Shown here: positions 39,241 to 57,351 of the stretch, one piece after another
Position numbering within the stretch: position 1 is the first letter of the stretch
How the letters are laid out: each line of letters starts with the position of its first letter
Assembly (NCBI GenBank): GCA_020723345.1
Contig: DYJA01000007.1
Coordinates: 1-64,000 of the forward strand
Length of the DNA: 64,000 nucleotides
Direction: 5' to 3'
DNA from: Candidatus Aquidulcis sp.
GTDB taxonomy: Bacteria > Chloroflexota > Anaerolineae > UBA4142
Program-made: the position numbers and the translations under genes
Notes under the pieces: generated by a model
The model's input: the letters and a program-made list of their open reading frames with translations, nothing else
Told to the model about the DNA's origin: nothing
Database searches by the model: none

Positions 39241-40035
39241 ATGTCCCAACGCTTTTTCATCGCCCAACGCGCCGCACGCGCCGCGGGCAAAGTGCTCACC
39301 GCAAAATGGCACGACGCGCGCAACATTCGCTACAAAGGCAAACGCGATATCGTCACCGACGCGGATTACGCGGCGGATCGCGTCATCAAGCAAACCATCC
39401 TGGCGCGTTTTCCCAACGACAAATTCGTTTCAGAAGAAGGCGACGCCGTCGAACACAAACGCTTGTGGGCGCAAGCAAACACGTCGGATGAGGTCGCGCT
39501 GTGGATCGTCGATCCACTCGACGGCACGACGAACTACGCGCGCATGATCTATCCCTTTTGTACGTCCATCGCGCTGTACCGCGCGGGCGCAGTCCAAATC
39601 GGCGCGATCTACGATCCGATTCTTGACGAACTCTTCTCGGCGGAACGCGGACGCGGCGCGTTCTTGAATGGCAAGCCGATTCACGTCAGCGCGATTCGTT
39701 CGCTCGAACAAGCCGTGTTCGGCGTGGAATGGGGGCGTGCGTTGTCAATTCGAAAACGTTCCGCGACCATATTCCTGCCCATTCTTCAGCGCGTCATGGC
39801 GGGGCGAACATTTGGCAGCGCGGCATTGTCGTTCTGCCATGTCGCCGCGGGACGCGTGGAGGGACACGCGCATCTATCTTTGTCGCCCTGGGATGTGGCT
39901 GCCGCCGCGCTGATCATCGAAGAAGCGGGCGGCAAAATCACAACGCCATCAGGCGCGGCGTGGACGGTTCATTCCAGAGAGTACGTCGCGAGCAACGGAC
40001 ATTTGCACGCAACCCTTTTGAAATTTTTCCGATGA
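39241..40035 (+). CDS. Inositol monophosphatase family protein
   Basis: A 264-residue Mg-dependent phosphatase (SuhB/IMPase fold). Metal-site motifs: SEEGD (about 62-66), WIVDPLDGTTNYARMIYPF (about 88-106) and SPWDVAAAALIIEEAGG near the C-terminus. It could act on inositol-1-phosphate, fructose-1,6-bisphosphate or PAP. It overlaps the UroD-like gene by four bases (ATGA). Mid protein, IRKRSATIFLPILQRVMAG is less typical. Specificity not determinable. Confidence 0.92.
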   Translation: MSQRFFIAQRAARAAGKVLTAKWHDARNIRYKGKRDIVTDADYAADRVIKQTILARFPNDKFVSEEGDAVEHKRLWAQANTSDEVALWIVDPLDGTTNYARMIYPFCTSIALYRAGAVQIGAIYDPILDELFSAERGRGAFLNGKPIHVSAIRSLEQAVFGVEWGRALSIRKRSATIFLPILQRVMAGRTFGSAALSFCHVAAGRVEGHAHLSLSPWDVAAAALIIEEAGGKITTPSGAAWTVHSREYVASNGHLHATLLKFFR

Positions 40036-40928
40036 TCCACCGCGAACGCATCCTCAAAACTTTGCGCGGCGAACCAACCGACCGCCTCGCGCGCGGCGAA
40101 CTCTTCATCGCCGATGAATTTGCCCGCGCGTTTTCTGGCGGCGCGGAAGGCGACGCGGTCGAGCGAGTCATCGAACAACTCGATCTCGATCTCGTTTCGA
40201 TTCCTTTCAGCGCGGGCTGGGGCACGCGGAGCCAACCCGACGAAGACCGCGCGTTGCAAGCCGTCGTGCGCTGGCGCGAACGCGATCAATTTGTGTTCGC
40301 GCTGATCGACGGGCCATTCAGCGCGGCGGTCAAGGCGCTGGGGTTCGACACGCTGATGCGGTACGCGCGCGACTTGCCGCGCACCGCGCGCGGCGCGTTC
40401 CGCGAAGGCGCGCACGATATTGGAGTACTCGCGCGCGCCTTGCGCGACGCGGGCGCGGACGGGGTGATTCTGGGCGACGACATCGCGTATAATCGCGCGA
40501 CGTTCTTTGCCTCCGAAGTGCTCGGCGCGCACTATTTCCATACGCTGAACGACGCGGCGCATGAAATTCACGCGCTCGGACTCGTCGTCTTTTTCCATTC
40601 CGACGGCAACTTGAGCGCAGTGCTGGGCGATCTCGCCGGGTGCGAATTGGACGGCATCCAGGGACTCGAACCCGAAGCCGGCATGTCCATCGCGCGCGTG
40701 CGCGAGCGCGTCGGCAATCGGCTGACGTTGTGGGGCAACGTCGGTTTCGATTTCTTGAGCGCGGAACGCACCGACGCAGAAATCGAACGAATGGTGGATG
40801 CGATCGCGCTGGGCACCGGCAAGTTGATTTTCGGATCGTGCGGCGGGCTGGTCAGCGGAATGAACATCGAAACAGTCCGCCGAACGCATCGGTGGGCAGA
40901 CACCGCGCGCTGGGTGCGTTTTTCGTAA
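40032..40928 (+). CDS. Uroporphyrinogen decarboxylase-like protein
   Basis: A 298-residue TIM-barrel protein of the UroD/MtaA superfamily. It starts MIHRERILKTLRGEPTDRLARGELFI, the superfamily opening, and has VVFFHSDGNLSAVLGDLAGCELDGIQGLEPEAGMSIARVRERVG and LIFGSCGGLVSG. It is shorter than true UroD (about 340-350) and lacks its Arg/Asp pattern at the N-terminus, so a methyltransferase-like or unknown role is more likely than haem synthesis. A longer frame to 39729 overlaps the phosphatase gene in another phase and is not used. Confidence 0.85.
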   Translation: MIHRERILKTLRGEPTDRLARGELFIADEFARAFSGGAEGDAVERVIEQLDLDLVSIPFSAGWGTRSQPDEDRALQAVVRWRERDQFVFALIDGPFSAAVKALGFDTLMRYARDLPRTARGAFREGAHDIGVLARALRDAGADGVILGDDIAYNRATFFASEVLGAHYFHTLNDAAHEIHALGLVVFFHSDGNLSAVLGDLAGCELDGIQGLEPEAGMSIARVRERVGNRLTLWGNVGFDFLSAERTDAEIERMVDAIALGTGKLIFGSCGGLVSGMNIETVRRTHRWADTARWVRFS

Positions 40929-44925: not shown

Positions 44926-44973
44926 TTGCAAGAATACTTGCAAAATAAATAAAAATGTTGTATAATCTTGCAA
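44926..44973 (+). promoter_or_regulatory. RpiR-gene promoter with three TTGCAA boxes
   Basis: A near-consensus promoter: TTGCAA (44938-44943), 17-base spacer, TATAAT (44961-44966). TTGCAA also occurs at 44926-44931 and 44968-44973, so copies lie upstream of, at and just downstream of the core promoter, partly within CTTGCAAG palindromes. This is the layout of autorepression by the RpiR-type regulator encoded 12 bases after the last box. Confidence 0.7.
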
Positions 44974-44984
44974 AGAGGTGCTCA

Positions 44985-45866
44985 ATGGAAGAGCTCAACG
45001 ATTTTCGCCGCCGAATCGAAAAACATTTTCCTCAACTGACCAAGAGCGAACAAAAAATCGCCGCGTTCCTCTTGTCCAGTTACGATCAAGCCGTTTTTCT
45101 GAACGCGGCTGATCTCGCGCGTGAGTTAGGCGTCAGCGAGGCGACGATTGTCCGCTTTGCGCGCACGGTCGGCTACGAAAGTTTTCCGCAATTGCGCCGC
45201 GCGCTCCAACACATCTATCGCGTCAAGACGACTCCCGCGACGCGCCTCCAGCGCAAACTCGCCGATTTGAAATCCGGCGAAGGTCACATCTTGACCAAAG
45301 TCGCGGAGATGGAGTTGCAATTCCTCTCCGAAGTGCCGCGCGAAATCGCTCCGGCGGATTTCGATCGCGCGGTGAAACTTTTGCTCAAAGGGCGGCGCGT
45401 GTTCGTCTTCGGTTCGGGCCCCTCGCGCATTCTCGCCGATCTCGTCAATATCCGGTTTACGCGGTTTGGTTTGTCCGTCGTCTGCATGACCGAGTCGGGA
45501 CGCGATCTGCTCGACAAGTTGGCTTTGCTCACGCGCGACGACGCGGTGTTGGCGATGGGATTCCATCGCGTCACCGGCGAATTGGTCGCGACGATTGATT
45601 ACGCGCACCGCGTCGGCTGCAAAACGGTTTTGCTCACCGATACGCTGCGCGCGCATTTTCAAGACAAGGTCGCGGTGGTGCTCGCCGCGCGCCGCGGTCC
45701 CGTGTCGACCTTTCATTCGTTGACCGTGCCGATGGTGATCTTGAACGCGATGATTCTCGCCGTCGCGATGGAACGGTCGGACGAAAGTTTGAGTTCGCTC
45801 AAGCGGATGGAAGAACTGCGCGCGGAATATGGTTTGGATGTGATTGGAAAAGTGAATTCGCAGTAA
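44985..45866 (+). CDS. RpiR/MurR-family transcriptional regulator
   Basis: A 293-residue sugar-phosphate sensor. The N-terminal helix-turn-helix includes LTKSEQKIAAFLLSSYDQAVFLNAADLARELGVSEATIVRFARTVGYESFPQLRR; the SIS domain (about 125-260) has VFVFGSGPSRILADLVNIRFTRFG and the phosphate-binding Ser/Thr region. AGAGGTG supports ATG 44985. It senses a phosphorylated sugar or inositol and probably controls the downstream transporter/HAD genes and the divergent kinase. Confidence 0.93.
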   Translation: MEELNDFRRRIEKHFPQLTKSEQKIAAFLLSSYDQAVFLNAADLARELGVSEATIVRFARTVGYESFPQLRRALQHIYRVKTTPATRLQRKLADLKSGEGHILTKVAEMELQFLSEVPREIAPADFDRAVKLLLKGRRVFVFGSGPSRILADLVNIRFTRFGLSVVCMTESGRDLLDKLALLTRDDAVLAMGFHRVTGELVATIDYAHRVGCKTVLLTDTLRAHFQDKVAVVLAARRGPVSTFHSLTVPMVILNAMILAVAMERSDESLSSLKRMEELRAEYGLDVIGKVNSQ

Positions 45867-45885: not shown

Positions 45886-47721
45886 ATGGCATTTCCAACA
45901 ACCTATCAACCGTCATTTTCGCTTCAACTGCTCGCCGCGTGGCGCAGGTTCATGCATTGGCTGACGAGCGCACACGTCATCTTGGCGTTGCTGATGCTCG
46001 CCTTGATGGTGTACTTGATCCTGGTGCCGCTCTACCGCATGATCGAAACGACGCTGACGTATCAAGAAAAAGATATACACTATGTGCCCGAAGCGGTGAC
46101 GGGCGAGTTCACCTGGTTTCATTGGACGCGGATGTTGACCGACGAAATCGCGCAGGTGATGACCTACGCGCCCCTGCAACATTCGCTCGTGATCTCGATT
46201 GGCGCGACCTTGCTCGCGCTCCTGATCGGCTCGGCATTGGCGTGGATGGCGGTTCGCACCGATATGGCAGGGCGCAACGTGATCAACACACTGGCGACTG
46301 TTCCGTACATTATGCCGTCATGGACGATTGCGATGGCGTGGACGGTCTTGTTCAAGAATCGTACGTCAGGCGGATCGCCGGGGATTTACGAATTTCTGAT
46401 TGGCGCGAGTCCGCCGGATTGGTTGGCGTACGGTCCCGTGCCGATCATCATCAGCAGCGCGCTCCACTATTACACTTTTTTCTTCCTCTTCGTTTCCGCC
46501 GCGCTAATGTCGATTGATTCCAATTTGGAAGAGGCGGGCGAGTTGATGGGCGCGAGTCGCTGGCGCATTCTGCGAAAAATCACGTTCCCGTTGATCGTTC
46601 CCGCGTTGCTCTCCGGCTTTATCATGACTTTTTCCAAAGTGATGGGCACGTTTGGCGGACCGAACGTGCTGGGCATTCCGGTCGGCTATTACACGATCTC
46701 GACGATGATTCGCGCGGATATGGGCTTGGGCAACTATGCCGATGGTTTTGTCCTGGCAATCGTTCTGATTCTCTTTGCGATGACGACGGTGTACGCCAAT
46801 CAAAAAGTCGTCGGCACGCGCAAGAGTTACGAAACGATTGGCGGGCGCGGCTTTGTCGCGCAGCGCACGCGCCTGCGAAAATGGAAAACCGTCTTGACGG
46901 CGGGCGTGATCGTTTTTCAATTGATCGTCGCGATCCTGCCGCTCGCGATTTTGGCGTTCAGCACGTTCATGTTGATTGACGGCGAATACACGCCCAGCAA
47001 TTTCACTTTGCATTATTGGATTGGCGAAAGCACGCCGACGATTTCGAACGGCGTGCCGGGCGTGCTCCGCAACCCCGATGTGTACAAGGGCGCGTGGAAT
47101 TCGATCGCACTGTCGTTGTGGACGGCGTTCTTCGCCGCGCTGCTCGGCGTCTTGCTCGGCTACGCCATCGCGAAAGGGCGCGGCACGCGCTTGTCGAAAC
47201 TGGTCGAGCAACTCGCGTTCATTCCGTACGTGATCCCCGGCATCGCGTTCGGCGCGGTCTACATTTCGATGTTCGCCAAATCGGTGGGGCCGATTCCGGC
47301 GTTGTACGGGACGTTCGCGCTGCTCGTCGTGGTCTCGGTCGCGAAGCATTTGCCGTACTCGGCGCGTACCGGCGTTTCCGCGATGCTCCAGGTCGGGCGC
47401 GAGTTGGAAGAAGCCGGGCAAGTCGCGGGCGCGAACGCGTGGGAACGTTTTCGGCGCATCATTTTTCCGCTCACCAGTCCCGGTTTTATCTCCGGCTTTT
47501 TGATGACGTTCATCACGACGATGCGCGAACTTTCGTTGATCATTTTGTTGGTGACGCCGTCCACCCAAGTGCTTGCCAGTATGACGATCCGGTACCTCGA
47601 AAACGACGATACGCAAATGGCGAACGCAGTCATCATCATCCTGGTCACGTTGGTTCTGATCGGCAATTGGCTGATCAGTTTGTTCCGCGGCGGCAGTCTC
47701 AAAAAAGGTCTGGGAATGTAG
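45886..47721 (+). CDS. Fbp/Afu-type ABC transporter permease (fused halves)
   Basis: A 611-residue permease with about 12 helices in two homologous halves, each with an EAA loop: EEAGELMGASRWRILRKITFPLIVPALLSGF (first) and EEAGQVAGANAWERFRRIIFPLTSPGFISGF (second). This fused form is usual for FbpB/ThiP-type importers of iron, thiamine, phosphonates or sugar phosphates. It starts 20 bases after the RpiR gene. Its partners are the ATPase and binding protein downstream. Confidence 0.92.
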   Translation: MAFPTTYQPSFSLQLLAAWRRFMHWLTSAHVILALLMLALMVYLILVPLYRMIETTLTYQEKDIHYVPEAVTGEFTWFHWTRMLTDEIAQVMTYAPLQHSLVISIGATLLALLIGSALAWMAVRTDMAGRNVINTLATVPYIMPSWTIAMAWTVLFKNRTSGGSPGIYEFLIGASPPDWLAYGPVPIIISSALHYYTFFFLFVSAALMSIDSNLEEAGELMGASRWRILRKITFPLIVPALLSGFIMTFSKVMGTFGGPNVLGIPVGYYTISTMIRADMGLGNYADGFVLAIVLILFAMTTVYANQKVVGTRKSYETIGGRGFVAQRTRLRKWKTVLTAGVIVFQLIVAILPLAILAFSTFMLIDGEYTPSNFTLHYWIGESTPTISNGVPGVLRNPDVYKGAWNSIALSLWTAFFAALLGVLLGYAIAKGRGTRLSKLVEQLAFIPYVIPGIAFGAVYISMFAKSVGPIPALYGTFALLVVVSVAKHLPYSARTGVSAMLQVGRELEEAGQVAGANAWERFRRIIFPLTSPGFISGFLMTFITTMRELSLIILLVTPSTQVLASMTIRYLENDDTQMANAVIIILVTLVLIGNWLISLFRGGSLKKGLGM

Positions 47722-47859
47722 CAATACCTTCGCCAAGATTAACCCACGGATAGAAAAGAATACGGATGATCAAAAAATTGTCTGTGTTCCCTTCGGTCAG
47801 TGGGGAGAAATCGCGTCTCAACAGATTAGCGCGGGTGTTGCGTGTACAGAAAGGAATCT

Positions 47860-48945
47860 ATGGGCACCTCCATCCTCATCAAGAATCTCACCAAACGTTT
47901 TGGCAACGTCGTCGCGGTCAACCAGGTCAGTCTGACGATCCAACCCGGAACTTTTCTCACGCTGTTGGGTCCGTCCGGCTGCGGCAAGACGACGCTGCTC
48001 CGCTGCATCGCCGGACTGGAAGATCCGGATGCGGGCGAAATTTACATCGGCGACAAGTTGGTCTTTTCGAGCGCGCAAGGGATCAACCTTCCGGCGGGTC
48101 AGCGCAACCTGGGACTCGTCTTTCAAAATTACGCGTTGTGGCCCCACATGACGGTTTTCAAAAATATGACCTTCGCGCTCGAAATCCAAAAGATGCCCAA
48201 GCCGCAAATGGCGCAGCGCGTTCAGGAATCGCTTGCCGAAGTGCAAATGGCGGGCTACGACGAACGCTATCCGCGCGAGATGAGCGGCGGACAACAGCAG
48301 CGCATCGCGCTCGCGCGGATGCTGGCGTATCGCCCCAAAGTTTTCTTGATGGACGAACCCCTTTCGAATCTGGACGCGCGGCTGCGCATTGATATGCGCG
48401 CGGAACTCAAACGCCTGCATCACGTCTCCGGCGCGACGACCGTTTACGTGACGCACGATCAAATCGAAGCGCTGACGATGTCGTCCGATATTGCCGTGAT
48501 GAAAGAGGGCGTCATTCAACAGATGGATACTCCCGACCGCATCTATCGCTGTCCCGCCAATCTCTTCGTCGCGGATTTCATCGGCAGTCCCAAAGTGAAT
48601 TTGCTGGAAGGCAGGGCGGACGGCGCGAATTCGATCGATCTCGGCAAATTCAAACTCGCGGCGAACACGCGCGGCGCGACCGGGCACATTGTCGTCGCGG
48701 TGCGCCCTGAGGACATCGCGGTCTCGCCCACCGCCGCGCCAAACGCAATCGAGTTCAAAGCGTACTCGGTGCTTCCCTCCGGCGCCGATTCAACCATCGT
48801 CGCGCAACGCGAAGGATTAGAAGTCACGGTCAGAGTGATGGGCAACAGCAAAATCAAAATGGACGATTCGATCTGGCTGACCTTCAACGCGGATTTGCTG
48901 AATCTGTACGACAAGGCGAGCGGGAATTTGATCGTGTCGAGTTAG
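47860..48945 (+). CDS. ABC transporter ATPase with TOBE domain (FbpC/PotA-like)
   Basis: A 361-residue ATPase: Walker A LLGPSGCGKTTLLRCIAG, Q-loop VFQNYALWPHMT, signature MSGGQQQRIALARML, Walker B FLMDEPLSNLDARLR, H-loop VTHDQIEA, and a C-terminal TOBE domain with AVRPEDIAV. AGAAAGGA before ATG 47860 is better placed than the GTG at 47842. The 138 bases before it hold no gene, only leader sequence. Confidence 0.93.
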   Translation: MGTSILIKNLTKRFGNVVAVNQVSLTIQPGTFLTLLGPSGCGKTTLLRCIAGLEDPDAGEIYIGDKLVFSSAQGINLPAGQRNLGLVFQNYALWPHMTVFKNMTFALEIQKMPKPQMAQRVQESLAEVQMAGYDERYPREMSGGQQQRIALARMLAYRPKVFLMDEPLSNLDARLRIDMRAELKRLHHVSGATTVYVTHDQIEALTMSSDIAVMKEGVIQQMDTPDRIYRCPANLFVADFIGSPKVNLLEGRADGANSIDLGKFKLAANTRGATGHIVVAVRPEDIAVSPTAAPNAIEFKAYSVLPSGADSTIVAQREGLEVTVRVMGNSKIKMDDSIWLTFNADLLNLYDKASGNLIVSS

Positions 48946-48972
48946 AAGTTGGAGGTTGGAGATTGGAGGAGG
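48944..48972. repeat. Family C repeat, copy 3
   Basis: AAGTTGGAGGTTGGAGATTGG starting inside the stop codon of the ATPase gene (TTAGAAG). Same units as in the copies at 20166 and 28429. Confidence 0.65.
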
Positions 48973-49037
48973 TGTACGAAAATTCAAAAGTTGAAATCAT
49001 GTTCAATTCGATCCACTTAACTCTCAAGGAGGAGAAA

Positions 49038-50240
49038 ATGAAAACGCTTATCAAGTTCCTGATCGTTTGCGCAATGTTCGGTTTGGTCGTCGCGTGCGCG
49101 CCGCAACCGCCCGCACCGCCAGCCGCGACCGCCGCGCCAACCGCCAACCCCGCTATCGACGCGTGGCTCAAGTCGGCGGAACTGGGCAAGTACGCGCCCG
49201 CGAAGCAAGATTGGGCCGCCATCGAAGCGGCGGCGAAGAAGGAAGGCAAGGTACTCGTCTACGCCAACTCGTCGCGCATCGCCGACGCGAAAAAAGCGTT
49301 CGAGAAAAAATATCCCGGCATCACGCTGGAAGGATTCGATCTGGGCAGCGAGGACTCGGTCCTCAAAATCAAAGAGGAGCAAAAAGCCGGAGCGTTTACC
49401 GGCGATGTGCTCTTCAGCAGCAGCGCCGCCGGTGACGTCGTCGCCGAAATGCTGCCCAAGCAGATGATTTGGAACTTTGTGCCGGACACGGTGGACGCGG
49501 TCTACCCCAAGGAATTCAAAGACCCGCTGCTGGTTTCGCGCATGGGCGTGCGCGTGCTCGCGTACAACTCGGAATTGAACAAGGCGTGCCCGGTCAGCAA
49601 CTGGTGGGAACTGACCGAACCGACGTGGAAAGGCAAAATCTTTATCGAAGATCCGTTGGCGGACGCCAGCACGATGGGAATCTTTGCCAACATCATCGCG
49701 CATCCGAAAGAACTCGCCGCCGCGTACAAGGACAAATACGGCAAAGACCCGACGCTGGACGCGGATACACCGGATGCCGGATGGCTGTGGCTCAAGATGT
49801 TCGCCAAGAACAAACCGATGCCGCAACCCGGCGGCGATGAAGTCACGACCGCGATCGGATCCAAGGGCATGAAAGAAGCCGGAGTCGGCTTCATCTCCTA
49901 CTCCAAATACCGGAACGTCGTCTCGGGCAAAATCGTTCTTGAGCCATGCAAGGGACTCAAGCCAGTGATGGGTCTCCAAACCCAGACCTATCTCGCGATT
50001 GCCAATCGCGCGCCGCATCCCAACGCGGCGAAACTCTTCATCAACTTTATCACCAGCCAAGAAGGGTTCGCGCCGTGGAATGTGATCGGCGATTACAACC
50101 CGCGCACCGATCTCGATTCGCCCAAAGGCGCGATTCCGTACGCGGAATTGGGCAAGGTCGTGTGGACGGTGGATGAAGTCGTCGCCTCCAAGACACTCGG
50201 CAAAGTGCGCGACTTTTACGCGATCAACGTGCTCAAGTAA
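49038..50240 (+). CDS. Substrate-binding lipoprotein of an Fbp/Afu-type transporter
   Basis: A 400-residue binding protein. A signal peptide ends in a lipobox VVAC (Cys at about residue 19), then an Ala/Pro/Thr linker. The body resembles iron-family binding proteins: KEGKVLVYANSSRIADAKKAFEKKYPGITLEGFDLGSEDSVLKIKEEQKAG. The Tyr pair that binds Fe(III) in FbpA is not evident, and the setting among sugar-phosphate-related genes makes a phosphorylated-carbohydrate ligand (as for AfuA) more probable. SD AAGGAGGAG lies before ATG 49038. Confidence 0.9.
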   Translation: MKTLIKFLIVCAMFGLVVACAPQPPAPPAATAAPTANPAIDAWLKSAELGKYAPAKQDWAAIEAAAKKEGKVLVYANSSRIADAKKAFEKKYPGITLEGFDLGSEDSVLKIKEEQKAGAFTGDVLFSSSAAGDVVAEMLPKQMIWNFVPDTVDAVYPKEFKDPLLVSRMGVRVLAYNSELNKACPVSNWWELTEPTWKGKIFIEDPLADASTMGIFANIIAHPKELAAAYKDKYGKDPTLDADTPDAGWLWLKMFAKNKPMPQPGGDEVTTAIGSKGMKEAGVGFISYSKYRNVVSGKIVLEPCKGLKPVMGLQTQTYLAIANRAPHPNAAKLFINFITSQEGFAPWNVIGDYNPRTDLDSPKGAIPYAELGKVVWTVDEVVASKTLGKVRDFYAINVLK

Positions 50241-50245
50241 ATTCT

Positions 50246-50310
50246 GGAAACCTTGCGAAGGTTCGTCCTGAGCGGAGCGCCGCGGAGTCGAAGGAAACCT
50301 TCGCAAGGTG
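50246..50310. repeat. Intergenic palindrome with GTCCTGAGCGGAG core
   Basis: ACCTTGCGAAGGTT on the left and AACCTTCGCAAGGT on the right flank a core with GTCCTGAGCGGAG and GGAGTCGAAGGA, a combination widely repeated in Chloroflexota genomes. The right end also provides the SD (AAGGTG) of the next gene. Confidence 0.75.
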
Positions 50311-50316
50311 AATGCG

Positions 50317-51234
50317 ATGACCACACTCGCGCTCTCGACGTTTTGGGCGAGCGGACGCGACTGGCGTCTGCGCGATTTCTTCGCCGCCGGGGCGGATCTC
50401 GGATTCGATTGCTTTGAACTCAGTGGAATTCAGCGTGACACCTTTTACGGTGAGATCCGCCCCGGAGTTTTTCGATTTGTCAGTCTGCACGATTCTGCGC
50501 CGCCCGCGCGCGCGCAAACGCGGCTCGGCTCCGGCGAGTTGCGCCGCGCCGACATCGTTTACACGTCGCTCGATGAAGAACGGAGACGACGCGCGATCGC
50601 GCTGACCAAAAATTCGATTGACGTGGCGGCGGAGTACGGCGCGCGCGTTGTCGTGTTGCATCCCGGACAGACGAGCGCGAGTCCGGCGATTGAGGAACGA
50701 CTCAAGCAATTATTCGCGCAAGAAAAAATCGATAGCCCAGAAGCCGACGCGCTGCGCGCGCAACTCGCCGTCGAACGCGCGGATCGCCGTCGCGAACGCA
50801 TGGACGCGCTGCATCGCGCGCTCGACGAACTTGCCGCATACGCGTTGCCGCGTAAAATTCAACTCGGTTTGGAGAATCGCCCGGCGCACGAAATCACAAA
50901 TTTCGTCGAGATGGGTGAGATTCTGGCGTGGTACTCAGGCGATGTGATCGGATACTGTCACGACACCGGACACGCGCAAGTGCAAGCAAACTTGGGATTC
51001 ACGCCGCACGCGGATTGGTTGTGCGCGTACGCGCCGCGCCTGATCGGCATGCACTTGCACGACGCGCGCGGCGTCACGAATCATCACGCGCCGGGGATCG
51101 GCAACGTCGATTGGCGCGCGCTCGCGCCGCTCGCGCCCAAGAATGTCGTCCGCGTGCTGGAAGTTGATCGAACAGTTTCGTCGGATGCAGTACGCGCAGG
51201 CATCGCGCATTTGCGCGCAACGGGGTGGCTGTGA
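50317..51234 (+). CDS. Sugar phosphate isomerase/epimerase (xylose-isomerase-like TIM barrel), copy 1
   Basis: A 305-residue AP_endonuc_2-fold protein. Metal-binding residues are in VVVLHPGQT (His), LGLENRPAHE (Glu), IGYCHDTGHAQ (Asp-x-x-His) and GMHLHDARGV (His). It would isomerise or epimerise a sugar or sugar phosphate. AAGGTG at good distance supports ATG 50317. It is paralogous to the next gene (similar first 40 residues and same motif spacing), so both likely act on related substrates. Confidence 0.86.
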   Translation: MTTLALSTFWASGRDWRLRDFFAAGADLGFDCFELSGIQRDTFYGEIRPGVFRFVSLHDSAPPARAQTRLGSGELRRADIVYTSLDEERRRRAIALTKNSIDVAAEYGARVVVLHPGQTSASPAIEERLKQLFAQEKIDSPEADALRAQLAVERADRRRERMDALHRALDELAAYALPRKIQLGLENRPAHEITNFVEMGEILAWYSGDVIGYCHDTGHAQVQANLGFTPHADWLCAYAPRLIGMHLHDARGVTNHHAPGIGNVDWRALAPLAPKNVVRVLEVDRTVSSDAVRAGIAHLRATGWL

Positions 51235-51263: not shown

Positions 51264-52166
51264 GTGACACAAGTTGCATTGTCCACAATGTGGGGCGTCA
51301 AAAGATTCGATACGCTAAAACATTTTTTCGAGGAGGGCAGCGCGCTCGGTTTTGCGCGGTTCGAATTGAACCACGCGATCAATTCGGAAATGCTCCAGCA
51401 TGTGAACGGCTACCGCATCGTCAGCATCCACGAACCTTGTCCCGCCGATGTATCGGCAGGCGAACTGAAGAAACGCAACTGGCTCATTTCCGCGCCGAAT
51501 GAACATGATCGGCGCGAAGGAGTCAACGCGGTCAAACGGAGCATCGCCCTCGCGCAAAGATTTGGCGCGCCCGCGGTGATCGTGCATCCGGGCAAAGTGG
51601 ACATTGACACGGCGATTGACAACAAACTGCGCGAGTTGTATCGGCAAGGCAAGCGGGACACGCCGGAATATGCGCGTCTCAAAGAGCAATTCATCGCGGC
51701 GCGCGCGGCACAAGCCCGCGTGAATTTCAGCGCGGTGCGTCACAGCGTCATCGAACTCGCGGAATACGCCGGGGAGCGCGGCATCCAACTTGGCTTGGAG
51801 AATCGCTACCACTATTTCGAAATTCCTACGCCCGACGAATTGTGCGATCTGTTAGAACTCGGTTTCGGCAACGTCGGCTTTTGGTACGACGTGGGGCACG
51901 CCGAAACCTGGGATCAACTTGGCTTTGTCCAGCACGAAGAATGGCTGCGCCGATTTTCGATGCGAATTATCGGCGTGCATCTGCACGACGTCGTCGGCAT
52001 CGACGATCATCGCGCGGCAGGCGAAGGGCAGATCGATTGGGAAATGGTTCGGCGCTATTTGCCCGCCGACGCAATGCGAACGTGCGAATTTCAGAACGAC
52101 AATTCACCGGAGCAAGTTTCCGCCGGAGTGAAATGGCTTGTCGAGAAAGGTTGTGTGCAACCTTGA
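51264..52166 (+). CDS. Sugar phosphate isomerase/epimerase, copy 2
   Basis: A 300-residue paralogue of the preceding gene: VALSTMWGVKRFDTLKHFFEEGSALGFARFELN opens the barrel; metal-site segments are VIVHPGKVD, LGLENRYHYFE, FWYDVGHAE and GVHLHDVVGIDDH. The last motifs give a complete metal site. GTG start with AAGGAG seven bases upstream. Overlaps the first HAD gene by 34 bases if the latter starts at 52133. Confidence 0.87.
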   Translation: MTQVALSTMWGVKRFDTLKHFFEEGSALGFARFELNHAINSEMLQHVNGYRIVSIHEPCPADVSAGELKKRNWLISAPNEHDRREGVNAVKRSIALAQRFGAPAVIVHPGKVDIDTAIDNKLRELYRQGKRDTPEYARLKEQFIAARAAQARVNFSAVRHSVIELAEYAGERGIQLGLENRYHYFEIPTPDELCDLLELGFGNVGFWYDVGHAETWDQLGFVQHEEWLRRFSMRIIGVHLHDVVGIDDHRAAGEGQIDWEMVRRYLPADAMRTCEFQNDNSPEQVSAGVKWLVEKGCVQP

Positions 52167-52918
52167 CCACTCGAATTCCACTCCGCGCCGCGATCTTCGA
52201 TATGGGCGGCACGCTCGAAGAAGTTGATTACGACGACGAGATGCGCTTGAAGGCAGCGTCCGGTTTCCGCGACATCCTTGCCAAGCACGATCTCGATCCT
52301 GGGTTGGATATTCCGGACTTGTATGCGATCGTCAAGACAGGGATGAAGAAATACCAGTCCTGGCGTCTCGCAAGTCAGCAGGAACTCGCGCCGGAACGTT
52401 TTTGGAACGAATTCGTTTTTGCCGCTCAGCATTTGCCGAAAGACAAAGTCGCGGCGATTGCCGAAGAGCTTGCTTTTTACTGGGACACGCGTTTTTTTCG
52501 ACGCGCGCTCCGTCCCGAAGTACCCGCGATGCTCGCCGCGCTGCGCGCGCGCGGATTGCGGCTCGGCGTGATTTCGAACATCACGAGTCGCGGCGCGGTG
52601 CCGCACAGTTTATCGGCGTACGGGCTGACGCATTATTTCGACGTCGTCGTCACGAGCGTCGCGTTCGGCTGGCGCAAGCCGAATCCGCGCATCTTTCTCG
52701 AAGCGACGCGTTTGATGGGGTTGCCGCCTGCCGCGTGCGCGTACACCGGCGATACCGTTTCGCGCGATGTCATCGGCGCGCGGCGCGCGGGCTATGGTTT
52801 GGTCATCCAGATCAAATCATTCTTGACGACCGTCTCGGATGGCGAGAAAGATGTCGAGTCGCCGGATGCGGTCGTCCAGAATTTGATGCAGGTGGTTGAT
52901 TTGGTTTGCGGAGCCTAG
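52133..52918 (+). CDS. HAD-family hydrolase 1 (DxGxT type)
   Basis: A 261-residue HAD protein with a C1-type cap. Motif I is FDMGGTLEE, so the nucleophile Asp is present but the usual Asp two residues later is Gly. Motif II is ISNITS, and motifs III/IV are GWRKPNPRIF and YTGDTVSRDVIGARRAG. It probably dephosphorylates a sugar phosphate. ATG 52133 has a GGAG; a TTG at 52163 that overlaps the preceding stop would give a more typical N-terminus. Confidence 0.85.
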   Translation: MACRERLCATLTTRIPLRAAIFDMGGTLEEVDYDDEMRLKAASGFRDILAKHDLDPGLDIPDLYAIVKTGMKKYQSWRLASQQELAPERFWNEFVFAAQHLPKDKVAAIAEELAFYWDTRFFRRALRPEVPAMLAALRARGLRLGVISNITSRGAVPHSLSAYGLTHYFDVVVTSVAFGWRKPNPRIFLEATRLMGLPPAACAYTGDTVSRDVIGARRAGYGLVIQIKSFLTTVSDGEKDVESPDAVVQNLMQVVDLVCGA

Positions 52919-52920
52919 CG

Positions 52921-53586
52921 ATGATCACAGGGATCTTCTTCGACGCGGCGGATATTTTTTACGAACGGTCTGAGTCTACATCGGGGTTGGCGACGCGTCT
53001 GCTCGAGCAATTGGGATTTTCGACGCGCGGGTCTGTGCAAGACTTGGTGCGTCAAAAAGAATTGCATACCCGGGCGACGGAAGGTCGTATCAGTCATGTG
53101 GCGTATTGGGACGAATACTTGCGAATGCGCGGCGTGAGCGATCCCGCCCAACGCGAAATGCTGGGCAAACGAATCGCGAATCACTCGAACGATATTGTCG
53201 CGATTCCCGGCGGACGCGAAGCGATGGCGGGGCTAAAGCAGCGCGGTTTTGTTCTCGGCATCGTCACGGACACGATCTACCCGCTCGAATGGAAAATGAA
53301 CTGGCTCGCCAGGGTTGGCGTCGCCGAGTTTATTGATTTTGCCGCCTGCTCGACGGTTGTCGGCGCGCACAAACCGAATCCGGAAATCTACCTGGACGCG
53401 CTGCGACAAGCGAAAATTTTGCCGCGTCAAGCCGCGTTCGTCGGACACGACGCACACGAATTGGAGGGCGCGCAGCGCGTCGGAATGCAGACGGTCGCGG
53501 TGAATCATGCGCCCGACGTTCGGGCGGATTTTTACGCGCGCTCGTTGATCGATCTGCTCACCGTGCCGATCTTCAGTAAACAGTGA
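52921..53586 (+). CDS. HAD-family protein 2 (altered motif I)
   Basis: A 221-residue HAD-like protein. Motif I reads FFDAADIFY: the first Asp is kept, but the second catalytic Asp is Ala. Motif II VTDTIY, Lys/acid motifs AHKPNPEIYLDAL and FVGHDAHELEGAQRVG are present. It follows the preceding gene by two bases. The last residues (FSKQ) and the stop lie in a family B repeat. May be a phosphatase of reduced or altered activity, or a regulatory HAD. Confidence 0.83.
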   Translation: MITGIFFDAADIFYERSESTSGLATRLLEQLGFSTRGSVQDLVRQKELHTRATEGRISHVAYWDEYLRMRGVSDPAQREMLGKRIANHSNDIVAIPGGREAMAGLKQRGFVLGIVTDTIYPLEWKMNWLARVGVAEFIDFAACSTVVGAHKPNPEIYLDALRQAKILPRQAAFVGHDAHELEGAQRVGMQTVAVNHAPDVRADFYARSLIDLLTVPIFSKQ

Positions 53587-53696: not shown

Positions 53697-54443
53697 ATGA
53701 ATCTCGACATTAAAGCCATTTTTCTTGATGTGGGCAATACCTTGCGAGTCGTTATCGAAGATGCGCCGTTCCAAGCGCAAGCCAGACAACAACTCGTAAC
53801 CCTGGTCGGCGCACAAGAACCCGTCGCGATTTTTTTCGAGCGACTGAATGTGCGATGGAAGGAATATCGCAAGTGGTCGTTCGAGAACCTGACCGAAGCG
53901 TCCGAACGCGAATTGTGGACGCGCTTTTTGTTGCCCGATCTTCCCGCCGAGAAGATCGCGCCACTCTCAGGAAAATTGACGCGCTTGTGGCGCGATAAAG
54001 ATGGTCGCCGCGTGCCGCACCACGATGTCAAAGCGACCGTTCTCGAACTTCACCGGCGCGGCTATACGCTCGGCATCATCGCCAACACGATCACGGAAAC
54101 GGAAATTCCGGATTGGCTCGCCGCCGACGGTCTCACCGAATATTTCAAAGCCGTTGTGCTTTCTTCCAAAGTACGTCATCGCAAACCGGGTCCGGAGATT
54201 TACTGGGAAGCCGCACGCCGGATCGGGATCGAGCCGAAATATTGCGCGTACGTCGGCGACAATCCAATTCGCGATGTGGAGGGCGCGCGCAAGGCGGGCT
54301 TTGCGATGACGATCATCTTGCCCGAGCCGGGCAAATCGGAAAAAGATTTGCCGACGAGCGAGAACAAACCGGATTTGTTCATCCAAGAATTTGGCGATCT
54401 CTTGAGTATTTTCCCGCCGCGTCAACGAATATTTCGCGAATAA
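53697..54443 (+). CDS. HAD-family hydrolase 3 (DxGxT type)
   Basis: A 248-residue HAD protein. Motif I FLDVGNTLRV (nucleophile Asp, second Asp replaced by Gly), motif II IANTIT, motif III RHRKPGPEIY, motif IV YVGDNPIRDVEGARKAG. GAGGA before ATG 53697. C-terminal tail RQRIFRE and TAA stop come from a family A repeat. Third tandem HAD; all three share the altered motif I. Confidence 0.88.
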   Translation: MNLDIKAIFLDVGNTLRVVIEDAPFQAQARQQLVTLVGAQEPVAIFFERLNVRWKEYRKWSFENLTEASERELWTRFLLPDLPAEKIAPLSGKLTRLWRDKDGRRVPHHDVKATVLELHRRGYTLGIIANTITETEIPDWLAADGLTEYFKAVVLSSKVRHRKPGPEIYWEAARRIGIEPKYCAYVGDNPIRDVEGARKAGFAMTIILPEPGKSEKDLPTSENKPDLFIQEFGDLLSIFPPRQRIFRE

Positions 54444-54542: not shown

Positions 54543-55730
54543 ATGTCTACATCGAACGCTCGCGGTTCGGATGTTTTTTCGGCAATCTTGTTCGAGAGAA
54601 TGAAGCGGATCAATCCCGCGATTGAAGATTTGGAGCTGTACGAATTTCGCTACGCGTTGCGCGATCTGATTCCCGCCGACGGCTGGGACGCGGTCGAACT
54701 CGACGCGCCGGAGGAGATCGAACGGCGCGTCAATTCACGCGAGTTCTATGCCGGGATCAAGATCAAGCCGCGTGCAGATAATCGGATTGTGCTGGATGAA
54801 AATATCGTGCGCCTGACCAATACGCTCTTGGTCGGTCTGGTCACGGACGCATATTGTGAGGAATGGATTCGCACGCATTTCTATTTTGACATTCGCGGTT
54901 TCTACTTTTTGCACCGGACGATCTATTTCACCGATGCAGCGTTGGCGCACTTGGGCGGCAAGCCCTTTCGGCAGTTCGAGCAGAAACAAAACCGGTTTGA
55001 ACGATACCAAAGCGTCGGTTACAAAGAATTCCAAGCCGCGAATGCGGAAATCGATCAGTTCTTTATTGAGTGCGCGCAGAAACTTGTCGCGATCAAAGGT
55101 ACGCCGATTCTCTTCGCCATCGCCGGAGGAACGGCGGCGGGCAAAACCGAAATCGTCGAGCGGTTACGTGGCGCGTTTGCGCAGAGTGGCATGAAGACCA
55201 CTTCGATTGAACTGGACAACTTTTTCACCGACCGCGAATATCGCGAAGCAAAAGGGATCGATTCACTGGGCAAAGAGGCGTATCACTTTGCGCTTTTTCA
55301 GCAGGCGCTCGAAGATATTTTGCGGGGAAAGCAAATCGCCATCCCGCGCTACGACACGATCTATGCCACGTCGAGTCACGATCTCGATGGCAAATTGAAA
55401 CCGACGGGTGTTCCAATTGTGGTCGAGCCAGCCGATATTATTTTTATCGAAGGTAATTTTCCATTTCTGTTTCCGGAGGTTGCGCGCTTGATCGGAATCA
55501 AAGCAGTCTATCTAACCGATGACGCGGTGCGCTTGAAACGAAAATGGAAACGCGATATTGATTATCGCAAAAAATACGAACCGACCTATTTTCGCAATCG
55601 CTTTTTCAAGGATCAATTTTTGATGGCGCAAAAATGCTACATCCCACAGTTGCAAATGTGCGACATCGCGGTGGACACGACCGGCGCGGCGATCTGGGTC
55701 ACGCCGGAAATTGCGGAAATGCTCAGGTAG
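54543..55730 (+). CDS. Uridine kinase-like / phosphoribulokinase-family P-loop kinase
   Basis: A 395-residue protein. A 185-residue N-terminal region of unknown type precedes a P-loop kinase domain with ILFAIAGGTAAGKTEIVERL (about 197-216), a Udk-like SIELDNFFTDREYREAKGIDS, RYDTIYATSSHDLDG and IIFIEGNFPF. It resembles uridine kinase/PRK enzymes which phosphorylate ribose-type hydroxyls. In this locus a sugar or nucleoside substrate is likely. AAAGGA precedes the ATG. Its TAG stop is in a family E palindrome. Confidence 0.83.
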   Translation: MSTSNARGSDVFSAILFERMKRINPAIEDLELYEFRYALRDLIPADGWDAVELDAPEEIERRVNSREFYAGIKIKPRADNRIVLDENIVRLTNTLLVGLVTDAYCEEWIRTHFYFDIRGFYFLHRTIYFTDAALAHLGGKPFRQFEQKQNRFERYQSVGYKEFQAANAEIDQFFIECAQKLVAIKGTPILFAIAGGTAAGKTEIVERLRGAFAQSGMKTTSIELDNFFTDREYREAKGIDSLGKEAYHFALFQQALEDILRGKQIAIPRYDTIYATSSHDLDGKLKPTGVPIVVEPADIIFIEGNFPFLFPEVARLIGIKAVYLTDDAVRLKRKWKRDIDYRKKYEPTYFRNRFFKDQFLMAQKCYIPQLQMCDIAVDTTGAAIWVTPEIAEMLR

Positions 55731-55754
55731 GACAAGTTTCCAAAACTTGTCCAA
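55727..55754. repeat. Family E palindrome, copy 2
   Basis: TAGGACAAGTTT and AAACTTGTCC around CCA. The first three bases are the TAG stop codon of the kinase gene. Similar to the perfect palindrome at 16403-16430, which also holds a stop codon. Confidence 0.75.
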
Positions 55755-55764
55755 CGGGAGTCCA

Positions 55765-57351
55765 ATGGCTAGCCAACATCTTTCACGCGGCGGCATCGCG
55801 CTTGCCGATGCGGTACGCGAATTGTATGCTGAGGGTCAAACCGATTACTCGCTCGAACCGATTGTCTTGGTCGACGCGCAGGGCAAGCCGGTTGGTCGCA
55901 TCGACAATGGCGACGCGGTGATCTTTTGCTGTCGGCGCGGCGAACGCGAAATTCAGTTGACGGAAGCGTTCACCGAACCGGGGTTTGATCGTTTTGCGCG
56001 CCCCGAGTTCAAAAACCTCACATTCGTCGTCCTGACGCTGTACCACGAAAAATTCTGGAATCTACCGGTCGCGTTTGCGCCGGAGAAAATTCAAGACACG
56101 CTCGGCGAAATCGTCAGCCGCGCGAATTTGCGTCAATTGCGCGTCGCCGAATCCGAAAAATTCACGCACGTTACTTTCTTTTTCAACGGCGGCAACAATC
56201 AACCGTTCGCGAATGAAGACGACGTGCGCGTGCCGTCGCCCCAAGGCATTCCCTTTGATCAAGTGCCGGAGTTGAGTCTGGCGCAGGTCACCGAACAAGT
56301 TTTGCGCGGCTTCGACGCGCGGTACGATTTAATCGTCACCAACTTTGCGAACGGTGACGTGATCGGTCACACGTCGAATCGCGATGCCAAGATCAAATGC
56401 GCGGAGGCGGTGGACGCGCGATTGGGGCAAGTCGTCCGCGCGGCAATTGCCGCCGATTACGTCGTGTTCGTCACCGCCGATCACGGCAATCTCGAATTGA
56501 TGACGAACCCGGACGGCACGCCACACGTCGCGCACACGACGAACCCGGTTCCATTTGCGCTGATCGATCCGCGTGCAACCGCGCGCGTCGATGTGCGCGA
56601 CGGTAAACTAGCGGACGTCGCGCCGACGATCTTGAGCGCGTTGGGTGTCGCGCAGCCGAACGCGATGGAAGGCGCGCCGCTCGCGCGCGTGTACGATTGG
56701 GGCGGCAAGCGGCGCGTGTTGCTCGTCATTCTCGACGGCTGGGGCATCGGCAAGCGCGACGACACGAACCCGATCTTTCTCGCGCCAACGCCGGTGTGGG
56801 ACGATTTGCTCCGGCAGTATCCGCACGCGCAATTGAGGGCGGCAGGCGACGCCGTCGGTTTGCAACCGGGCAAAGCGGGAAACTCGGAAGCGGGGCATCT
56901 CAACATCGGCGCGGGGCGCGTCGTGTTGCAAGACGATGTGCGGCTCGATCTCGCGATGCAAGACGGATCGTTTTACACGAACGAAGTTTTTCTTCGCGCA
57001 ATCGAGCAGACCAAACAACGCGACGCAAGTTTACACTTGATTGGCTTGCTCACGGAGAAAAGTTCGCACGGCTCGATTGATTATCCGCTGGCGCTGATGA
57101 AGATGGCGCAAGCCAGCGGCTTGCGCGACGTTTACCTGCACGTCATCTTCGATGGACGCAGCACTGAGCCGGGCAGCGCGCCCGCGTTGCTGGAAAAGTT
57201 GGAGCGCCAAGTGGACGAGATTGGCGTTGGGCAAATCGTGTCCGGGGTTGGGCGCGGCATCGCGCTAGATCGCGACGGCAATTATGCCAAGACGAAACGC
57301 GCGTACGACGCGTTGGTGTTGGGCGTTGGAGAGAAATGCCTGGCGCGATAG
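55765..57351 (+). CDS. gpmI: Phosphoglycerate mutase (cofactor-independent), circularly permuted
   Basis: A 528-residue iPGM that interconverts 3- and 2-phosphoglycerate with a phosphoserine intermediate, but its parts are in rotated order. The segment normally C-terminal comes first: Arg58/Arg61 (RRGER), Lys132 (ESEKFTHVTFF), Asp198/His202 (NGDVIGH), Asp239/His240 (TADHGN) and His257 (VAHTTNPVP). After a short linker the normal N-terminal half follows: Asp324 (LVILDGWGIG), nucleophile Ser374 (GNSEAGHLNIGAGR), His435, DGR at 463-465 and Arg497/Arg503 (GRGIALDRDG). Nearly all metal and substrate residues are there; the Asp after DGR in most members is Ser466. ATG 55765 follows GGGAG. Length is normal, so this is one enzyme, not a fusion of two. 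Confidence 0.85.
   Translation: MASQHLSRGGIALADAVRELYAEGQTDYSLEPIVLVDAQGKPVGRIDNGDAVIFCCRRGEREIQLTEAFTEPGFDRFARPEFKNLTFVVLTLYHEKFWNLPVAFAPEKIQDTLGEIVSRANLRQLRVAESEKFTHVTFFFNGGNNQPFANEDDVRVPSPQGIPFDQVPELSLAQVTEQVLRGFDARYDLIVTNFANGDVIGHTSNRDAKIKCAEAVDARLGQVVRAAIAADYVVFVTADHGNLELMTNPDGTPHVAHTTNPVPFALIDPRATARVDVRDGKLADVAPTILSALGVAQPNAMEGAPLARVYDWGGKRRVLLVILDGWGIGKRDDTNPIFLAPTPVWDDLLRQYPHAQLRAAGDAVGLQPGKAGNSEAGHLNIGAGRVVLQDDVRLDLAMQDGSFYTNEVFLRAIEQTKQRDASLHLIGLLTEKSSHGSIDYPLALMKMAQASGLRDVYLHVIFDGRSTEPGSAPALLEKLERQVDEIGVGQIVSGVGRGIALDRDGNYAKTKRAYDALVLGVGEKCLAR

Follow-up and report, generated by a model that had tools for sequence, protein, structure and literature searches.

In bacterial iPGM (GpmI; TIGR01307), represented by the B. 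stearothermophilus structures 1EJJ and 1O98, the chain runs colinearly from a phosphatase strand through an inserted transferase domain into the rest of the phosphatase domain. The B. stearothermophilus enzyme contacts phosphoglycerate through nine residues, namely Ser62, His123, Arg153, Asp154, Arg185, Arg191, Arg261, Arg264 and Lys336 (PMC3886921). Two further mutases of the Metalloenzyme superfamily bear on the present case: aPGM (TIGR00306), which has the canonical order with a different insert domain, and phosphopentomutase (DeoB), which acts on a substrate other than phosphoglycerate, has another cap domain and is not permuted. Among importers, AfuABC of Actinobacillus takes up hexose and heptose phosphates (PMC4546632). 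The first-pass annotation of the locus described here was aware of no described natural permutation in the iPGM family; in agreement with this, we found no prior description in openly licensed papers, an absence that is not proof, and a 2010 survey of bacterial PGMs makes no mention of permutation.

In the 64,000-nucleotide stretch of DNA that was analysed (the window), a forward-strand gene at 55765-57351, with an RBS-like GGGAG upstream of its ATG, encodes a 528-residue protein (P0001) that shares with GpmI the sequence blocks, the metal ligands, the serine nucleophile, eight of the nine substrate contacts and the chain length. P0001 and its permuted homologues differ from GpmI in their circular chain order, in the replacement of Asp154 by Ser or Gly, in the motifs SSHG[SC] and RGER, in their co-occurrence with another PGM and in forming a separate clade. 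P0001 reaches 37 bits against TIGR00306 (cut-off 320), over the metal-binding part only, and its similarity to DeoB is weak (37 bits against NF003766, cut-off 256). Genes for aPGM are found in the same genomes and adjoin some of the permuted genes.

A rotated iPGM chain

Both halves of P0001 match one single-copy protein in swapped order. Against 1EJJ/1O98, residues 16-306 (55810-56682, forward strand) align with 219-508, the native C-terminal part (i-Evalue 1e-64), and residues 315-522 (56707-57330, forward strand) with 3-210, the native N-terminal part (i-Evalue 5e-49). Between them, residues 307-314 (56683-56706, forward strand) form a linker of about eight amino acids from the native C-terminus to the native N-terminus; among the permuted proteins this linker is short and variable, and its position is conserved. 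The first block holds Arg58, Arg61 and Lys132, the equivalents of Arg261, Arg264 and Lys336 in 1EJJ, together with the metal ligands Asp198, His202, Asp239, His240 and His257 (Asp403, His407, Asp444, His445 and His462). The second holds Asp324, Ser374, His435, Arg465, Arg497 and Arg503 (Asp12, Ser62, His123, Arg153, Arg185 and Arg191), and the codon at 57160-57162 (forward strand) specifies Ser466, the counterpart of Asp154. The colinear GpmI order is absent, being rotated so that the new chain ends fall in the transferase domain, at the loop 211-218 of 1EJJ. Pfam Metalloenzyme and iPGM_N each match P0001 in two stretches, as does TIGR01307 (504 positions), the best of whose stretches places residues 14-306 on model positions 214-503.

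Because the length is that of one iPGM and nothing is duplicated, the protein is a rotation; a tandem fusion is ruled out by this length and by the single set of motifs. The earlier reading of the chain, with the iPGM blocks in the order second half then first half, the native C-terminal end running through a short linker into the native N-terminus, the new ends within the transferase domain and no tandem fusion, was borne out by these alignments, in which the first half matches the native C-terminal and not the N-terminal part. All the residues it had named (Lys132, Asp198/His202, Asp239/His240, His257, Ser374 and Ser466) were verified.

The permuted chain also yields a confident model. Full-length P0001, predicted by AlphaFold2 with 21 permuted homologues, folds as a single chain with a pLDDT of 89.7 and a pTM of 0.82. 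Foldseek aligns it to 1O98/1EJJ over only about 296 columns, at 41% identity, because a sequential alignment cannot take both halves of a permutation together. Modelled alone, the C-terminal half was poor (pLDDT 58.8), which is unsurprising for a cut that passes through both domains; the result fits the idea that neither half is a domain, but is no proof of it.

The genome to which the window belongs is fragmented (132 contigs), and two normal gpmI fragments might have been wrongly joined by an assembly or frame error. However, the same order is present in 28 of the 396 genomes of the window's class (27 full-length single matches and one split over two contigs), in dozens of independent assemblies from other phyla, in the single-contig chromosome CP070811.1 and in the isolate Butyricicoccus pullicaecorum ET57 (L069), and the linker position is conserved and the residues are clade-specific. 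Because the order recurs in independent genomes, an artefact is excluded for practical purposes, with a probability that we regard as negligible. P0001 is the bacterial iPGM chain in a naturally occurring, circularly permuted form, with the native termini joined by a short linker, the length kept and the same arrangement found again in independent genomes.

Distribution and ancestry of the permuted proteins

About 67 of the 396 class genomes have the canonical order, recognized by two BLAST pieces whose order is reversed. The class survey, together with a named-genome scan based on 21 aligned permuted proteins, placed permuted genes in at least eight phyla, the genomes surveyed being mostly MAGs. 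Among the matches listed are Chloroflexota, Bacillota (many gut and rumen Clostridia), Thermotogota (Kosmotogaceae), Bipolaricaulota, Aminicenantes, Deltaproteobacteria/Thermodesulfobacteriota, Acidobacteriota, WOR-3 and Zixibacteria. The locus on CP070811.1 (L064), from an Anaerolineales bacterium of the Chloroflexota, has the same coordinates as that of G257 in the class survey, which puts the window and this bacterium in one class.

In an IQ-TREE phylogeny of 96 rows, comprising 63 permuted proteins rotated in silico to canonical order and 33 canonical ones, one branch (support 100/99, recovered in 100% of 200 bootstrap trees) sets off all 63 permuted rows, which lie outside the canonical iPGM clade. 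They split into two well-supported sub-clades, A (31 rows, including the window) and B (32 rows). The root was not inferred, and the permuted set is a sister or derived clade relative to canonical iPGM. As the permuted set makes up one side of one branch of this unrooted tree, the phylogeny points to one ancient permutation event with two descendant clades. Most likely, an iPGM gene would have been duplicated in tandem and fused, after which the outer halves were lost; the linker between the native ends, being short and variable, would then be a remnant of the fusion point. No intermediate of this route was seen among the sequences surveyed.

Pairs of canonical iPGM genes in tandem were observed in Patescibacteria/Falkowbacteria (L131, 4376-7642; L132, 1886-5067; L133, 7962-11243). 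The upstream copy of L132 is apparently broken into two frames, and those of L131 and L133 have a diverged His123 loop (SGSSPHTN and SNGSAHSE, respectively) and retain DGRD. We weighed these pairs as possible leftovers of the duplication step and rejected this reading; because they are positioned elsewhere in the tree, they show only that tandem copies occur.

Active site and accompanying phosphoglycerate mutases

The active-site positions were compared in 1EJJ numbering across 86 permuted (38 of clade A and 48 of clade B) and 33 canonical sequences. Asp12, Ser62, His123, Arg153, Arg261, Arg264 and Lys336 are invariant throughout, as are the metal ligands Asp403, His407, Asp444, His445 and His462, and the nucleophile and ligands of the two-metal site (Asp12, Ser62, Asp403, His407, Asp444, His445 and His462) are present in 86/86 permuted proteins. 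Arg185 and Arg191 are nearly invariant, the exceptions being one substitution and a few gaps in clade B. Position 154 is Asp in 33/33 canonical sequences, Gly in 48/48 of clade B and Ser in 38/38 of clade A, the clade of the window, for which the first-pass annotation had correctly pointed to Ser466 in place of the Asp that follows DGR. Eight of the nine phosphoglycerate contacts are kept, and Asp154 alone is lost, always and only in the permuted proteins. Asp154 has a part in positioning or activating the hydroxyl of the glycerate; its exact chemical role was not found in the openly licensed literature. Between canonical and permuted sequences, the loop GVHSH is replaced by SSHG[SC] and NFRxDR by RGER.

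The carriers surveyed were 67 distinct genomes (68 handles, one duplicate), chosen by the presence of the permuted gene and not at random. A conventional PGM is additionally present in 63 of them: aPGM above the curated cut-off in 49, a split aPGM (286 bits) in one, canonical iPGM without aPGM in 10 and dPGM only in three. Of the four exceptions, G359, G412 and G416 had no other PGM found and G257 had only an aPGM fragment, several of these genomes being incomplete. In the genome of the window, an aPGM (377 bits) is encoded at C70:242632-243756. As a rule, then, the carriers have the permuted enzyme as an additional paralogue. An aPGM gene directly adjoins the permuted gene in G020, G089, G397 (L065) and G398 (L066) and lies at most 1.5 kb away in G004; the loci with an aPGM beside or near the permuted gene are L009, L044, L065, L066 and G004 C308, and G004, G020 and G089 have a second aPGM elsewhere. 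Across the 396 class genomes, no genome was found to combine a permuted with a canonical iPGM. This separation could also mean replacement. In Clostridia, the two do co-occur.

The suggestion that the permuted protein may be the glycolytic enzyme of the cell appears unlikely from gene content, since a complete PGM is also present in the window's genome and another PGM in 62 of the 66 other carriers; the accompanying suggestion, a mutase specialized for its locus, is favoured. The strongest candidate for use of the permuted enzyme as the PGM of the cell is G412 (Bipolaricaulota, the genome of L089), in which no aPGM, dPGM or canonical iPGM was found. Two permuted copies, on C19 and C28, were observed in this small genome.

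A redundant mutase of 2- and 3-phosphoglycerate, in which the permutation and the change of Asp154 to Ser or Gly are neutral, would serve as a second PGM isozyme, for example in gluconeogenesis or for the flux of the window's operon. It would fit the TIGR01307 (pgm_bpd_ind) score of P0001, 500.7 bits against a cut-off of 330.65 (391-486 bits for other permutants), the eight retained contacts, the four carriers with no other PGM or only a fragment and the lack of co-occurrence with canonical iPGM in the class. Against it, Asp154 is found in 33/33 canonical and 0/86 permuted proteins, nearby motifs change in concert with it, and another PGM occurs in 63 of 67 carriers, with an aPGM gene beside or near the permuted gene in five. 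We consider this reading a minority one, with a real chance that is well short of even. Of the first-pass name, a naturally permuted iPGM, the permutation stands and "phosphoglycerate mutase" is not established, given the separate clade and the loss of Asp154 in 86/86.

The explanation that we consider probable, from the conserved residues and the gene content of the carriers, is an iPGM-like two-metal phosphomutase with changed substrate specificity, distinct from the glycolytic enzyme. In an enzyme of this kind, with a site of the Mn2+ type, Ser374 would take the phosphoryl group from a phosphorylated substrate, forming a phosphoserine intermediate, and return it to a different hydroxyl, while the transferase domain would grip a small phosphorylated acid through the invariant arginines, Lys132 and His435. 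The substrate of the altered Asp154 pocket would not, or not mainly, be 2- or 3-phosphoglycerate but another small phosphorylated acid or sugar, because Asp154 is replaced in all permuted proteins and carriers almost always have a conventional PGM as well. Against this explanation, phosphoglycerate could still be a substrate with eight of the nine contacts kept, the four exceptional carriers named above have no other complete PGM found, clade B loci lack the HAD/ABC setting described below, and the separation of permuted and canonical iPGM in the class could reflect replacement.

Gene neighbourhood and a proposed family

The permuted gene is the last of a same-strand run that starts at an RpiR-type regulator with a SIS (phosphosugar-binding) domain (44955-45866, forward strand, as are all genes of the run). 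An ABC double permease (45886-47721), an ABC transporter ATPase (47842-48945) and an AfuA/FbpA-like solute-binding protein (48963-50240) are followed by two xylose-isomerase-like TIM barrels (50308-51234 and 51264-52166), an ORF with a third HAD domain (51842-52918, the HAD part from about 52184), the HAD hydrolases HAD1 (52906-53586; Pfam) and HAD2 (53697-54443; Pfam and solved-structure search) and a kinase of the PRK/uridine-kinase family (54543-55730). The importer resembles AfuABC-type systems in its double permease and its FbpA/AfuA-like binding protein near a clade A gene, but the similarity of the binding protein to iron/AfuA-type proteins is only weak (4r72, AfuA; E 6e-5). Solved structures offer only remote relatives of the binding protein, the TIM barrels, the HADs and the kinase. 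From this content, it is a reasonable inference that the operon serves the utilization of a phosphorylated sugar or sugar acid.

Parts of this setting recur. L008 and L064 have a homologue of the kinase next to the permuted gene, and L065, L066, L101 and L119 have one of the regulator near it. Among the named loci listed, a homologue of HAD2, the nearest HAD, is found at 25/32 of clade A, 0/37 of clade B and 0/10 canonical loci, and one of the double permease at 9/32, 0/37 and 0/10, respectively. Clostridial loci also have LacI regulators, PfkB-family kinases and an IolG-like dehydrogenase. Clade B surroundings are unrelated, with M23 peptidase, PCMT and macro-domain genes in Deltaproteobacteria and ABC exporter genes in Aminicenantes. 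As clade B loci do not have the HAD/ABC context, the two clades may have different roles.

The kinase and the permuted gene are separated by a 34-nt gap that contains, at 55730-55752, the perfect palindrome GGACAAGTTTCCAAAACTTGTCC, of which the genome has 22 copies (at most two mismatches), compared with 0 of a reversed control pattern; some are clustered at C128:60591-61617, and the element is an interspersed REP-like repeat. Upstream of the operon, an ORF of the inositol-monophosphatase family (39241-40032) overlaps one of the URO-D family (39729-40925).

The abundance of HAD-family proteins at the locus, together with an intact alkaline-phosphatase-type metal site and serine and the lost Asp154, would also suit a phosphatase or one-way phosphotransferase that passes the phosphoserine group to water or another acceptor, for want of the residue that keeps the glycerate hydroxyl in place. 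Yet the substrate-holding arginine cluster, the lysine and His123 are conserved in both clades, and the several HAD genes already provide candidate phosphatases; we judge this alternative improbable. For the window's clade, the phosphomutase reading may be extended, as a weaker suggestion, to a pathway in which the ABC transporter would import a sugar or sugar acid, possibly phosphorylated, that would then be processed by the HAD phosphatases, the kinase and the TIM-barrel isomerases under the RpiR/SIS regulator.

On balance, we favour the view that the permuted clade is a new family: an ancient iPGM permutation that would act as a phosphomutase or phosphotransferase on an undescribed substrate and is filed as gpmI. 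It would have two sub-families of different specificity, a Ser type in sugar-uptake operons and a Gly type elsewhere. Permuted proteins pass TIGR01307 well above its cut-off because a whole-protein score adds stretches irrespective of their order. The database label gpmI is probably a misnomer for an enzyme with a different job, as one key substrate-binding residue is lost and a normal PGM is usually also present.

Beyond what was first noted at this locus, the permutation is old, appears to have a single origin and extends over many phyla. An enzyme of central metabolism that was circularly permuted in nature, fixed once and spread so widely is rare, and the family offers a naturally occurring experiment on how the two hinged iPGM domains put up with relocated chain ends. 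Because the equivalog model is blind to chain order, proteins that lack the Asp and accompany another PGM are called glycolytic mutases, and this would affect the metabolism reconstructed for Chloroflexota, gut Clostridia, Aminicenantes and syntrophic Thermodesulfobacteriota.
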